Program-made: the position numbers and the translations under genes | Shown: in pieces, positions 19,065 to 34,050 of the stretch | Position numbering within the stretch: position 1 is the stretch's first letter | Layout of the letters: each line of letters opens with the position of its first letter | The notes under the pieces: generated by a model | The model's database searches: none | The model's input: the letters and a program-made list of their open reading frames with translations, nothing else | What the model was told of the DNA's origin: nothing | From: Phycicoccus endophyticus | GTDB lineage: Bacteria > Actinomycetota > Actinomycetes > Actinomycetales > Dermatophilaceae | Assembly: GCF_011326735.1 (NCBI RefSeq) | Contig: NZ_JAANCN010000002.1 | Span: 248,001-312,000 of the forward strand | DNA: 64,000 nt | Direction of reading: 5' to 3'

Positions 19065-19111
19065 CCCAGCGCGCTCCCACCCCCGTCAACGCCCCCCCTC
19101 CGCCCCCGCCC

Positions 19112-19270
19112 GTGCCTGATTCGACCAATAGGTCACGCCAGACACACGCCGGCGTGCCTGATTCGACCAATAGGTCACGAAAAGCACGGGAGGCGTACCT
19201 GACGTGACCTATTGGTCACGAGAAGCACGGGGAGGCGTACCTGAGGTGACCTATTGGTCGAATGAGGCAC
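19112..19270. repeat. Palindromic repeat array 1 (four units, about 42-bp period)
   Basis: Four copies of a hairpin core (GACC-N4-GGTC with outer GT/AC) have centres near 19128, 19170, 19211 and 19253, spaced 42, 41 and 42 bp. Units 1 and 2 have centre AATA, units 3 and 4 have TATT. The outer 25 bp (19112-19136 and 19246-19270) are inverted repeats with 24 of 25 matches. Spacers between units are similar but not identical. The array lies between the promoter of siderophore operon I and the 3' end of an ABC-2 permease gene. The same core occurs at 33.2-34.0 kb with a different spacer family. Confidence 0.9.
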
Positions 19271-19291
19271 GGCGGGGACGGGGCGCGCGGG

Positions 19292-30315: not shown

Positions 30316-31475
30316 CCCTCCTCGCCCAGCCCCTCGAGCGGCTGCTCGCCCTCGGCGACCTCGGGCGCGCCCCGGCGGGCGCGGTCGTCGGGGTGCACAC
30401 GCCGGCCCGGCGTTCCGTCGCCGCCGGCGGGTGGGCCGTGCTGCCGACGCAGGAGTCCGACGGGGTGCCGATGACCCGGGACACCTGGCTGGACTGGGCG
30501 TCGGTGACGAAGGTCGCCGCGACGACCCTCCTGCTCCTCCTGCTCTCCGATGCCGGCGAGCTCGACCTCGACCAGCCGGTGGCCCGGCAGGTGCCGGGGT
30601 TCGCCGGCGGAGGCCGGGAGCGGGTCACCGTCACACACCTGCTGACCCACACCTCCGGCCTGGCCGCCTGGGAGCCGCTGTACTGCCGCGCGACCGACGT
30701 CGCCGCGGCGACGGCGGCCGTCGTCGGCCTGCCCCTGGTGAGCGCCCCCGGAGAGGTGCGCCGCTACTCCGACCTCGGGCTCGTCCTCGCCGGGCACGTC
30801 GTGGAGCGGGTCACCGGGCTCGACCTGCCGACCGCGTTCCGCCGGCACGTCGCCGCCCCCCTGGGCCTCTCGCTGCGGCTCGGGCCGGTGCCCGCCGTGT
30901 GGGCGGCGACGAGCGCGGACAGCGACGTCGTGGAGCAGGTCATGGTCGCCCGCGGCGAGCCCTACCCCGTGGAGGCCTCGCCGGAGGACTTCGCCGGCTG
31001 GCGCGGCACCCCGGTGCGCGGCGACACCCACGACGGCAACGCGGCGCACGCGTTCGGGGGGGCCGCCGGCCATGCCGGGCTCTTCGGCCAGGCCGCCGAC
31101 CTGCTCGCCCTCGGCGCCGCCCTGTGCGACGGCACACTGCTCGCACCCGCCACCCTCGAGGCGGCGGCCCACCCGACTCCGGCCGACCCCACCCAGGGGC
31201 TCGGTCTCCGTCTGCTCGAGCGGCCCGGCCCGCACGGCGCGCCCGTGACCTGGCTGTGGCACGGCGGGTTCACCGGCACGGTCTGGGCGCTCGAGCCGCG
31301 CTCGGGCACCGTCGTCGCCGGCGGCGCGACCCGGCTGCACGGCACGACCGGTCCGCTGCGCACCCGGCCCTCGGCCTCCCGGGGCCCCGGCCCGCTCGCC
31401 GGCCTGGCCACGGGCGAGCAGATCCGCGACGTCGTCCTCGCGGCGGCGCATCCGCCGAAGGAGACCAGCCGATGA
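30312..31475 (+). CDS. Serine hydrolase, beta-lactamase/PBP fold
   Basis: A 387-residue class C beta-lactamase-like hydrolase. The active-site serine motif is SVTK (64-67), the second motif is YSD (152-154; YxN or YxS is commoner), and HGGFTG about residue 317 occupies the KTG position. [10 protein letters not shown] is the usual family loop. There is no signal peptide, so it is probably cytoplasmic. Other bacteria also place a beta-lactamase-fold protein in MurNAc-use operons (for example YbbE in Bacillus subtilis), so a peptidase or amidase acting on imported muropeptides is plausible. It overlaps anmK and the ATPase gene by 4 bases each. Confidence 0.85.
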
Positions 31476-33148
31476 CCGCCCTCCCTCCCGCGAGGCCGCT
31501 GCTGTCCGTCCGCGACCTCACCGTGGCCTTCGCCACCTCACGCGGCGAGATCGAGGCGGTCCGCGGGGCCGACCTCGAGGTCTCCGCGGGCGAGACCGTC
31601 GCCGTCGTCGGCGAGTCCGGTTCGGGCAAGTCGACGCTCGCCGCATGCGTCACCCGGCTGCTCGCCGACAACGGCCGGATCGCGGCCGGCACGGTGATGC
31701 TGCGCGACCTGGACCTGACCCGCGCCGACGAGCGCACCCTGCGGGAGGTGCGCGGCCGGCGGGTCGGGTTCGTCCCGCAGGACCCGATGACCGGGCTCAA
31801 CCCGGTGATGACGGTCGGGGCCCAGATCGCCGAGGCCCTCGAGGTGCACGGCCGCGCCCAGGGGCGCCAGGCCCGGGCGCAGGCCGCCGACCTGCTCGCA
31901 CGGGCCGGCATCGCCGACGCCGCGACCCGGGTCGACCAGTACCCGCACGAGTTCTCCGGAGGGATGCGCCAGCGGGTCCTCATCGCGATGGCCCTGGCCT
32001 GCCGGCCCGAGGTGCTCGTCGCCGACGAGCCCACCTCCGCACTCGACGTCACGGTGCAGCGGCTCGTGCTGGACCAGATGGCCGAGCTCGCCGCCGACGT
32101 CGGCGCCGCCGTCGTCCTCATCACCCACGACCTCGCGCTCGCGGCCGAGCGGGCCGACCGGGTGGTCGTCATGTACCGCGGCCAGGTCGTCGAGACCGGG
32201 CCGGCCGAGCAGGTCGCCGAGCGCCCGCAGCAGGAGTACACCCGGCGCCTGCTGGCGGCCGCCCCGGGCATCGCCGAGCGGAAGGTGTCGGTGGTCGAGC
32301 CGGTCCAGGGGCGGGCGGGCGCCTCCGAGGGCTCCGGTGGGTCGTCGGGTTCCGGTGGCTGCGAGGAACCGCTGCTCGTGCTCTCCGGTGCGGTCAAGCG
32401 CTACCGGGTGCGGGGACGGCGCGAGCCGCTCGTGGCGGTCGACGACGTCGACCTCGCGGTGCCGCGCGGGCAGACGGTCGCCGTCGTCGGGGAGTCCGGG
32501 TCGGGGAAGTCGACGGCCGCCCGGCTGGCGCTGCGGCTCGAGGACGCCGACGCCGGCACCGTGCGGTTCGCCGGCGAGGACGTCACCCACCGGCACGGGA
32601 GGGCGCTGCGCGGGTTCCGGCGCGCGGTGCAGCCGGTCTTCCAGAACCCCTACGCCTCGCTCGACCCGCGCTACACGATCGAGCAGGTGGTCGCCGAGCC
32701 GCTCGTCGTCCATGGCGTCGGCGACGCGGGGCATCGCCGCCGGGCGGTACGCGACCTCCTCGAGCGGGTCGCGCTGCCCGCCGACCTCGCGTCCCGGCGG
32801 CCGCACGAGCTCTCCGGGGGCCAGCGGCAGCGGGTCGCCATCGCGCGGGCGCTCGCGCTCGACCCGCAGCTCGTCGTCATGGACGAGGCGGTCAGTGCCC
32901 TCGACGTGCTCGTCCAGGAGCAGATCCTCGACCTCATGGTCGAGCTGCAGCGCGAGCTCGGCCTGTCCTACCTGTTCATCACCCACGACCTCGCGGTCGT
33001 CCGGCTCGTCGCGCACGAGGTGTACGTCATGCAGGGCGGCCGGGTCGTCGAGCGGGGCGAGCCGGGGCGGCTCTTCGCCGAGCCCCGGGAGGAGTACACG
33101 CGCACCCTCCTCGCGGCCATCCCCGGGCAGTCGCTCGTCCACCACTGA
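31472..33148 (+). CDS. Fused double-domain oligopeptide-type ABC ATPase (DppD-DppF)
   Basis: A 558-residue protein with two complete ATPase domains. Domain 1 has Walker A GESGSGKST (47-55), then FVPQDPMTGLNPVMTVG and FSGGMRQR; domain 2 has a second GESGSGKST near 340, QNPYASLDPRYTIEQVV and LSGGQRQRVAIARAL. A glycine/serine-rich linker (about 280-305) joins them. It supplies both ATP sites for the Dpp-type permeases. Translation starts at ATG 31472, overlapping the hydrolase stop. It is the last gene of the operon and ends 24 bp before the larger repeat element. Confidence 0.95.
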   Translation: MTALPPARPLLSVRDLTVAFATSRGEIEAVRGADLEVSAGETVAVVGESGSGKSTLAACVTRLLADNGRIAAGTVMLRDLDLTRADERTLREVRGRRVGFVPQDPMTGLNPVMTVGAQIAEALEVHGRAQGRQARAQAADLLARAGIADAATRVDQYPHEFSGGMRQRVLIAMALACRPEVLVADEPTSALDVTVQRLVLDQMAELAADVGAAVVLITHDLALAAERADRVVVMYRGQVVETGPAEQVAERPQQEYTRRLLAAAPGIAERKVSVVEPVQGRAGASEGSGGSSGSGGCEEPLLVLSGAVKRYRVRGRREPLVAVDDVDLAVPRGQTVAVVGESGSGKSTAARLALRLEDADAGTVRFAGEDVTHRHGRALRGFRRAVQPVFQNPYASLDPRYTIEQVVAEPLVVHGVGDAGHRRRAVRDLLERVALPADLASRRPHELSGGQRQRVAIARALALDPQLVVMDEAVSALDVLVQEQILDLMVELQRELGLSYLFITHDLAVVRLVAHEVYVMQGGRVVERGEPGRLFAEPREEYTRTLLAAIPGQSLVHH

Positions 33149-33171: not shown

Positions 33172-33301
33172 CGTTCCTCATTCGACCAATAGGTCACGTC
33201 AGCGACAGCGACGCGGGGCCAGACGTACCTGACGTGACCTATTGGTCACTCCAGCGACAACGACACGGGGCCACACGTACCTGAGGTGACCTATTGGTCA
33301 C
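33172..33301. repeat. Palindromic repeat array 2, left part (three units, 52-bp period)
   Basis: Three hairpin cores are centred near 33189, 33241 and 33293, exactly 52 bp apart. The first has an AATA centre, the other two TATT (GTGACCTATTGGTCAC at 33234-33249 and 33286-33301). The spacer of about 36 bp is conserved and starts with a (T)CCAGCGACA-like segment and ends CGTACCTGA. The left 26 bp (33172-33197) form one arm of an inverted repeat with 34025-34050. The third core contains the stop codon of the TmrB-like gene. Confidence 0.9.
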
Positions 33302-33821
33302 TCCAGCGACGGCACAGGGCGGCGACCCGAGCGGCCACGTCTGCCGGTGGCGCGCCGGTCGTGTCCACCACGGTGGCCGACTCGTGCAGCCAGGTCCGCG
33401 CGGCCTGCGCGTACGGGCGTAGGTGCGCCAGCCGGAAAGACGAGGGGACCTCGTGCTCGCCGGTGATGCGGTCTCGCAACGTCGCCTCGTCCGCGTGCAG
33501 CACGACGTGCCGAACGGGGATGCCATGCGCCCGCAGTCCGTCACTGATCTCCCGCCAGTACCCCTCGACGAGCACGGTCATCGGGACGACGAGCGTGCCC
33601 CCGGCATACTCGAGCACGCTCCGGGCGGTCTCGACGACGAGGGCGCGCCACGGGGGCCAGTGCTGGAAGTTGTCCGTGGCAGGGAGTCCCGGCGTGATGT
33701 CCATGAGCATCTCGCCCACCCTCTCGGCGTCGAAGACTCGCGCGTTCGCAAGCAGCGGCTGCAGGAGAGCGCTCGTCGTCGTCTTCCCCACCCCGTGCGT
33801 TCCGTTGACCCAGACGATCAC
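33291..33821 (-). CDS. TmrB-like P-loop protein
   Basis: A 176-residue AAA/P-loop protein resembling TmrB, the tunicamycin-resistance protein of Bacillus subtilis. It starts with a Walker A (MIVWVNGTHGVGKTTTS, residues 7-14), keeps DNFQHWPPWRALV and LVVPMTVLVEGYW, and has DEATLRDRI in the region matching TmrB. TmrB-like proteins bind ATP and confer tolerance, but the substrate here is unknown. The C-terminus W-S-D-Q-stop is encoded by the third palindrome of the repeat array. Its base composition is visibly less GC-rich than the neighbours, which with its location suggests horizontal acquisition. Confidence 0.8.
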   Translation of the reverse strand: MIVWVNGTHGVGKTTTSALLQPLLANARVFDAERVGEMLMDITPGLPATDNFQHWPPWRALVVETARSVLEYAGGTLVVPMTVLVEGYWREISDGLRAHGIPVRHVVLHADEATLRDRITGEHEVPSSFRLAHLRPYAQAARTWLHESATVVDTTGAPPADVAARVAALCRRWSDQ

Positions 33822-33868
33822 GGGTCGACGCTAACGCTGGCGGGAGGACCACCGCAGACGTACCTGAC

Positions 33869-34050
33869 GTGACCTATTGGTCACTCCAGCGACAACGACG
33901 CGGGGCCACACGTACCTGACGTGACCTATTGGTCACTCCAGCGACAGCGACGCGCGAGCAGACGTACCTGACGTGACCTATTGGTCACTCCAGCGACAGC
34001 GACGCGGGGCCACACGTACCTGACGTGACCTATTGGTCGATTGGGGGACG
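33869..34050. repeat. Palindromic repeat array 2, right part (four units, 52-bp period)
   Basis: Four cores GTGACCTATTGGTCAC or its terminal variant start at 33869, 33921, 33973 and 34025, with exact 52-bp steps. All have TATT centres. The spacers are near-identical (GCGACAACGACGCGGGG-like, with the third slightly diverged as GCGACGCGCGAGCA). The last unit changes to the terminal form GGTCGATTGGGG and overlaps the 3' end of the amidotransferase gene, whose stop codon lies in the core. Spacer identity and palindromic units exclude a CRISPR array. Confidence 0.9.

Follow-up and report, generated by a model that had tools for sequence, protein, structure and literature searches.

The array and its flanking genes

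The window, a 64,000-nucleotide stretch of the Phycicoccus endophyticus genome (G000; G numbers denote genomes and L numbers loci), holds an array of palindromic repeats between a gene for an ABC transporter ATPase and one for a class-I glutamine amidotransferase (GATase), with a third gene inside the array and a second array of the same family further to the left:

31472-33148, plus strand: ABC transporter ATPase gene, left flank, convergent
33172-34050, no strand: whole array in the window, seven 36-bp units with inverted ends
33172-33207, minus strand: unit 1, inverted, left terminal, reading GACCAATAGGTC on the plus strand
33224-33259, plus strand: unit 2
33276-33311, plus strand: unit 3, source of the AAA/TmrB-like gene's stop codon (GAC CAA TAG)
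33291-33821, minus strand: AAA_33/AAA_18 P-loop gene, TmrB-like, of low GC3, between units 3 and 4
33859-33894, plus strand: unit 4
33911-33946, plus strand: unit 5
33963-33998, plus strand: unit 6
34015-34050, plus strand: unit 7, right terminal, which supplies the GATase stop codon
34030-34773, minus strand: GATase gene, right flank
19111-19271, no strand: second array, same repeat family (locus L041), units --++, steps 42, 41 and 42 bp

The core GACCTATTGGTC occurs seven times in the first array (once inverted), at 33184, 33236 and 33288 and, beyond the gene, at 33871, 33923, 33975 and 34027, giving steps of 52, 52, 583, 52, 52 and 52 bp, of which 583 is the gap that holds the gene. This agrees with a preliminary description of the locus, which had reported seven palindromes at 52-bp spacing, inverted ends and an enclosed gene of lower GC content: the two ends (33172-33202 and 34020-34050), each 31 nt long, show 90% complementarity, and the gene, whose stop lies within unit 3, has 70.2% GC against 75.6% for most of the ABC gene and 78.4% for the GATase gene. 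The unit length of 36 bp and the repetition of the core across the genome go beyond that description. Allowing up to three mismatches, the 16-mer matches the window 17 times against 0.15 expected, a count reached in 0 of 100 shuffles; this total counts palindromic sites once per strand and takes in the second array at 19121-19261. The GATase of G000 terminates in the array-encoded PPIDQ; the C-termini in G011 and G003 are different and longer.

The TmrB-like gene has the lowest GC3 (0.887) among the window's called genes longer than 400 nt (mean 0.967, sd 0.019), and a foreign composition is supported. Its product is an AAA_33 P-loop protein related to PDB 2vli, an "antibiotic resistance protein" (E 3e-15), and relatives with 71-80% DNA identity lie on plasmids of Streptomyces and other actinobacteria; the long matches in the plasmid search belong to this gene, not to the repeats. 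It has no NCBIfam or PADLOC match and no relative in the other 11 genomes of the genus among the matches listed (down to about E 1e-14), and a phage search with the array region gave no match. At this locus the closest genomes share about 75-80% identity with G000. Sites free of the array, which the preliminary description had thought worth seeking, do exist: the ABC gene directly adjoins or overlaps the GATase gene in G011, G003 and G001, and both the array and the TmrB-like gene are absent there. It follows that the G000 lineage acquired the array, which the gene may then have entered or by which it may have become enclosed, and the gene is probably a bystander or a captured gene. Of the earlier proposal of a cassette captured by a repeat array, the repeated core, the gain of the array and the foreign gene composition stand; the cassette as a unit does not, as discussed below.

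The repeat unit and its distribution

Each unit is an imperfect palindrome of 36 bp, CGTNCCTGNNGT-GACCTATTGGTC-GATNNGGGNACG, in which arms of the form CGTNCC...GGNACG flank the core; because the central TATT is not self-complementary, each unit has an orientation, a minus unit being one that reads GACCAATAGGTC on the plus strand. The core is not unique to this locus, a question that the preliminary description had raised: the 12-mer occurs 97 times exactly in the 3.18-Mb G000 genome (99 when one mismatch is allowed, and twice for the reversed pattern), in 23 fetched loci, nearly all as arrays, and most arrays enclose no gene. In a first survey, 7 of 58 genomes had an exact match to this core (core 1), with many copies only in G000 and G011, and a profile search of 186 genomes of the family returned 9 at E<=0.01, four of them (G000, G011, G083 and G084) with 36-48 matches. 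A second genus likewise has core-1 arrays. A contig scan with the 16-mer gave 96 stretches, many of them lone matches in unrelated phyla, at chance level.

Three genomes of the genus that have no core 1 (G003, G005 and G008) carry arrays of a second core related to the first, found at the acyl-CoA carboxylase locus, with the palindrome CGTGCAN-NAATCG[AT]CGAA[AT]G[TC]GTCGATTNNTGCACG and a period of 51-53 bp. With up to one mismatch, TCGWCGAAWGTGTCGA has 26, 22 and 43 copies in these three genomes and 0 to 7 in each of the other 183 of the family, at least one being present in 117 of 186. Set in one register, the core-1 and core-2 consensus units have the same ends, the same surroundings of the core and the same internal AA and GTC. 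In G121 (Janibacter sp. HTCC2649), a third core, GTCCTATTGGAC, which is a compensated change of GACC...GGTC, brackets the nuclease-like gene described below with units at L141:177, 1969 and 2023 (a 54-bp step); arrays with a third core, of which this is an example, could have been scored as absent.

A de novo repeat scan of 200 kb around the origin, which recovers 17/23 and 12/25 known loci, found one other array in G010 and one in-gene repeat in G006; the origin tracts of these two genomes contain no core-1 units and, respectively, no core-2 unit and one. An Rfam search with the array gave nothing credible (best E 2.6), and a literature search gave no report of such a repeat family in Dermatophilaceae among the matches listed. 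REPs in general are palindromes of 20-40 bp, high in copy number and mostly intergenic, found in convergent or tandem gaps near 3' ends; here the unit is 36 bp, with 97 exact cores and 78 of 82 arrays intergenic, and the same gaps are favoured; divergent gaps are not depleted. We are confident that the repeats are a REP-like, genome-wide family of the Dermatophilaceae.

Spacing, polarity and gene context

Of the 79 core-1 spacings in G000 and G011 (per-array distinct values), 75 lie within 41-45, 49-56 or 61-64 bp, and their best period, 10.6 bp, was equalled in strength by 0 of 2000 jittered sets. The 69 core-2 spacings of G003, G005 and G008 give a best period of 10.5 bp, 57 of them falling within 1.5 bp of a multiple, and the jitter test on 49 per-array values again found equal strength in 0 of 2000 sets. 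Array steps thus correspond to four, five or six helical turns (42, 52 or 63 bp). As RNA, a perfect unit folds with -30.7 kcal/mol, and terminal and core-2 examples with -15.2 and -16.6 kcal/mol, and the arms show no covariation above that of shuffles. The helical phasing together with the lack of arm covariation therefore points to a site in duplex DNA, and we lean slightly towards the units being read as phased duplex. That whole-turn spacing is found in two families argues for selection on duplex-DNA geometry, and bears on whether the repeats act as DNA or as RNA.

Minus units lie to the left of plus units in 43 of 45 mixed-orientation arrays of G000, G011 and G083, divergent gaps included, and these arrays have inverted ends whether or not a gene is enclosed; in G008 the same order is seen in one of two mixed arrays. 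The match between the ends of the window array is a trait of the family, because outer arms resemble each other no more within an array than between arrays (8.25/12 within and 8.01/12 between in G000; 6.65/12 and 7.38/12 in G011), and pair-specific matching of array ends was rejected on this ground.

By codon-usage gene calls, 78 of 82 arrays are intergenic and 67 lie in convergent or tandem gaps (30 convergent, 37 tandem and 11 divergent, with 4 intragenic); the caller is a simple one that errs at some loci, and it overlooked the nuclease-like gene of G083 and that of G084. With the gene pairs of the window and of the tracts from G010 and G006 as baseline (48 convergent, 257 tandem, 52 divergent), the arrays show an enrichment in convergent gaps (p 3e-8) and no depletion in divergent ones (11/78 vs 52/357; p 1.0). 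The median distance of arrays to gene 3' ends is 21 bp, and in 18 genes of G000, G011 and G083 a unit centre lies at most 20 bp from the stop codon, with 8 of these 18 proteins ending in DQ, coded by the unit's GAC CAA TAG. Some arrays are read in frame. The 3' part of hyuA (hydantoinase) holds in-frame arrays in three genomes of two genera, with five units in G000, three in G011 and one in G083 (L033:2698-2895, L167 near 2456 and L229:7104), encoding peptides such as PESTNRSP, PTSTNRSQ and the like, and in G008 an in-frame core-2 array with steps of 93, 93 and 81 bp (L294:2574-2841) encodes VQKSTNVSIDDHDESDPWDDQ repeats within the gene for a 1435-residue Fe-S/CCG-domain protein. In-frame copies in genes and repeat-derived stop codons are likewise reported for REPs in excerpts of an earlier study (PMC3733652).

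A nuclease-like gene bracketed by arrays

The acyl-CoA carboxylase locus of all eight array-bearing genomes (core 1: G000, G011, G083 and G084; core 2: G003, G005 and G008; third core: G121) contains a gene whose product resembles a restriction endonuclease, with minus units before it and plus units after it in 8/8; the bracket in G000 and G121 encloses a MOSC gene as well. The fetched stretches of this locus gave no match to the protein in eight genomes lacking both cores (G001, G002, G004, G006, G007, G009, G010 and G085, with about 1 kb of the G009 locus unread), and elsewhere in these genomes the matches listed, down to about E 1e-8, are weak partial DNA matches in G006 and G007; G003 too has weak partial matches to relatives of the gene at other places. 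That the nuclease-like gene (DUF559) at L032, the G000 copy of this locus, is a plain host gene was rejected, the gene being absent where arrays are absent. MOSC, present at the locus in seven of the eight genomes without either core (G001, G002, G006, G007, G009, G010 and G085), is a host gene. The finding of one nuclease-like gene between arrays in each array-bearing genome examined makes it a likely partner of the repeats, and probably a dedicated one.

The protein has 308-313 residues (431 in G005 with the first start) and is 52-94% identical among the eight genomes. Its C-terminal half is restriction-endonuclease-like, with the motif FR[LI][DE]L...EYDGRWH...D..RR...WTF, of which the EYDGRWH and D..RR residues are kept in 8/8, and its N-terminal half has a conserved LSHWTAARLWGG stretch. 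We take it to resemble nucleases of the Vsr/DUF559 type; three of the proteins match PF18741 (REase_MTES_1575) below the cut-off (26.7-36.2 vs 38.2 bits), and there is no NCBIfam match.

On a tree built from three conserved genes (the three-gene tree) the joint presence of gene and arrays needs 5 changes, at least 3 of them forced by starred branches; in the supported independent pairs gene and arrays go together in 3/3, a number too small to reach significance (sign test p 0.25), and G005, which has the gene and core 2, and G010, which has neither, are sisters at 100/100. In the nuclease tree the core-2 genomes form one clade (99/97), which the three-gene tree rejects for G003, G005 and G008 (AU p 0.00125), and a nuclease tree with G000 held beside G005 is also rejected (AU p 0.029). 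Given this conflict between the two trees, the core follows the nuclease-like protein and not the species. Columns separating the core types include D92R, F/L95W, R104C and R106I/T (G011 numbering), and they number 29, which is not outstanding since another split has 32; without residues 80-115 the support of the core-2 clade is 77/81, and part of the signal therefore lies in these residues.

Position on the chromosome and shared slots

G083 is a single contig of 3,695,644 bp with dnaA at 2.396 Mb, and its 61 clusters (one-mismatch-only clusters outside the fetched stretches excluded) are distributed over successive tenths of the distance from oriC as 15, 7, 5, 11, 8, 7, 4, 2, 2 and 0. The oriC half holds 46 of the 61 (p 9e-5; KS 4e-5), or 34 of 46 when loci less than 10 kb apart are merged (p 0.002), and the terminus-proximal 30% holds 4/61. 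A 200-kb tract at the terminus has 0 units (168 called genes), and one at oriC has 11 (161 called genes). In G008, with the origin taken at parB (0.846 Mb), the origin half has 19 of the 23 clusters and the terminus half the other 4 (p 0.003). A density gradient along the chromosome, like the oriC bias here, is described for E. coli REPs in excerpts of PMC4820846.

Some slots are shared between genomes, as judged from protein matches of the flanking genes and from reading of the slots. Six of 23 G000 loci are common to G011 (L032, L033, L034, L039, L046 with one extra gene, and L049), and four of 19 G083 regions are common to G000 (L032, L033, L035 and L040; six gene-sharing pairs, two in adjacent slots, were counted as four). 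Six of 21 G008 loci match core-1 arrays of G000, G011 or G083 (L295, L301, L302, L303, L196 and L307, the last with one extra gene). Rough expectations are 0.3, 0.3 and 0.8 for these 6, 4 and 6, and with the expectation doubled p is 7e-5, 0.002 and 0.006. Slot sharing fits long retention with change of the core in place and repeated use of favoured slots alike, the two not being separable here.

A lone unit in G000 (L048:2684; C17:184183) lies some 140 bp beyond the stop codon of dnaA, in what is likely the oriC region.

Relation to known systems and interpretation

The closest parallel is the REPtron, for which excerpts of PMC8266576 and PMC3116915 describe genome-wide palindromes, inverted pairs, tandem clusters, species-variable repeats and a mostly single-copy TnpA-REP (RAYT) gene bordered by palindromes. 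All of these features have a likeness here, the bordered gene included, but the bordering repeats surround a restriction-endonuclease-like protein and no Y1 enzyme: the Y1 transposase (PF01797) was found in 0 of 12 genus genomes and in 5 of 14 control genomes, and was rejected as a partner. GTAG REPs and REPINs differ in that no GTAG is present here, where the 36-bp unit ends in CGT/ACG and steps by whole turns. CGTC REPs, according to excerpts of PMC3733652, have an unpaired CGTC tag, a stem of 8-9 bp and a CCA tail, lie near 3' ends and have no known dedicated partner transposase; the last two features are shared by the present repeats, whereas in the present units CGT is paired with ACG (80-100% of units, depending on position and class), the stem reaches 16 bp, there is no CCA tail and clusters are common. 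The word Actinobacteria is absent from the main text of that paper. BIMEs are bound by gyrase, IHF and Pol I. BIMEs alternate in orientation, as excerpts of PMC4820846 have it, whereas the arrays here keep one polarity from end to end. A MITE of a known IS would share its ends with an autonomous element and be flanked by a target-site duplication; the window array has inverted ends. Integron cassette arrays differ in having a gene with each site, while most arrays here hold none.

On the whole, we moderately favour a REP/REPtron-like system with a different candidate enzyme, of which the window array is one copy. The nuclease-like protein would read the units as duplex DNA, as TnpA-REP does its REPs in the REPtron, and a change in its sequence would go with a change of core. 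We lean towards the arrays spreading via cutting and repair by this protein, together with tandem growth; alternatively, the protein may bind the arrays and organise the chromosome, and a spreading rather than housekeeping role is suggested with some reserve. Tentatively, this may be a new class of REP, in which a restriction-endonuclease-like protein with its own phased arrays has been inherited vertically at a single locus across at least three genera, has been lost jointly with them several times, and has changed its target word (GACCAATAGGTC; GWCGAAWGYGTC; GTCCAATAGGAC) while positions partly persisted. The novel features would be the class of the enzyme, phasing in whole turns, a fixed polarity and the related cores that go with the candidate nuclease-like protein. 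No partner enzyme had been known for REP-like repeats that lack a Y1 transposase, as PMC3733652 states for the CGTC REPs. Since the candidate gene tracks the arrays, is bracketed by them and splits by core type, the question of a partner enzyme becomes testable.

A first alternative, which we regard as unlikely, is that the units are sites for a chromosome-organising protein (Noc/SlmA-like or gyrase/BIME-like) and the nuclease-like gene a mere neighbour. Noc sites are absent from the terminus in excerpts of PMC4331003, and as with Noc and SlmA the palindromic sites here are spread across the chromosome and depleted at the terminus (G083, G008); the oriC bias, the helical phasing and the arrays kept at shared slots across genera fit this reading too. 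Against it stand the patchy occurrence within the genus, the joint pattern of arrays with the nuclease-like gene, and the organisation in arrays with a changing core and no accompanying extra gene of the ParB family. An extra ParB/Noc paralogue as partner is unsupported: ParB_N counts do not track the arrays, there being one match in seven of the eight array-bearing genomes and two in G003.

It is decidedly unlikely that the repeats are a selfish miniature element, moved by some unspecified transposase and neutral to the host. Patchiness, the array-free site at the window locus and the inverted pairs would suit such an element, but no Y1_Tnp (the class searched) occurs in the 12 genomes, slots are kept, and units are retained in frame in hyuA of three genomes. 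That selection acts on the units as RNA, either as bidirectional terminators or as hairpins for 3' RNA stability, we consider improbable. They do fold as RNA and favour 3' ends and convergent gaps, and the majority sign of tandem arrays leans with transcription (14/18 ++, 8/12 --; Fisher p 0.024), but covariation is missing, no evident function of helical phasing in RNA suggests itself, and the polarity rule extends to divergent gaps, and these are not depleted. Least probable is a non-autonomous cassette that carries genes between array ends, the reading of the preliminary description, for although the inverted ends, the low-GC3 gene, the array-free site in G011, G003 and G001 and, formally, the bracketed nuclease-like gene (8/8 genomes) would each fit, exact copies are separated by 0.4-1.8 kb at just 3 of the 23 fetched G000 loci, one of them L032 with MOSC and the nuclease-like gene inside, and the other 20 have no DNA of such size there, no gene enclosed elsewhere matches that of the window array, the enclosed MOSC is a host gene, and the nuclease-like gene is a partner more likely than a cargo.

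Other repeats

Several further repeats were seen. In G009 a long intergenic tract (L200:661-1503) consists of a different repeat type, GGACGGGCCGACGACACGG ... CGTGTCGTCCGCCCG blocks, and in G010 an intergenic array of period 51 with another palindrome, CCCCTGTTGGGG, lies about 80 kb from parB (L277:1796). A lone 20-mer match to the unit is present in a viral contig (IMG/VR 3300022745_000292; L190:4162). Behind the acyl-CoA carboxylase gene, G085 (L203:2046) and G084 (L127:3760-4080) carry a period-42 repeat, CCCTATGACCTCYTCGCAGGCTC..., of unrelated sequence.
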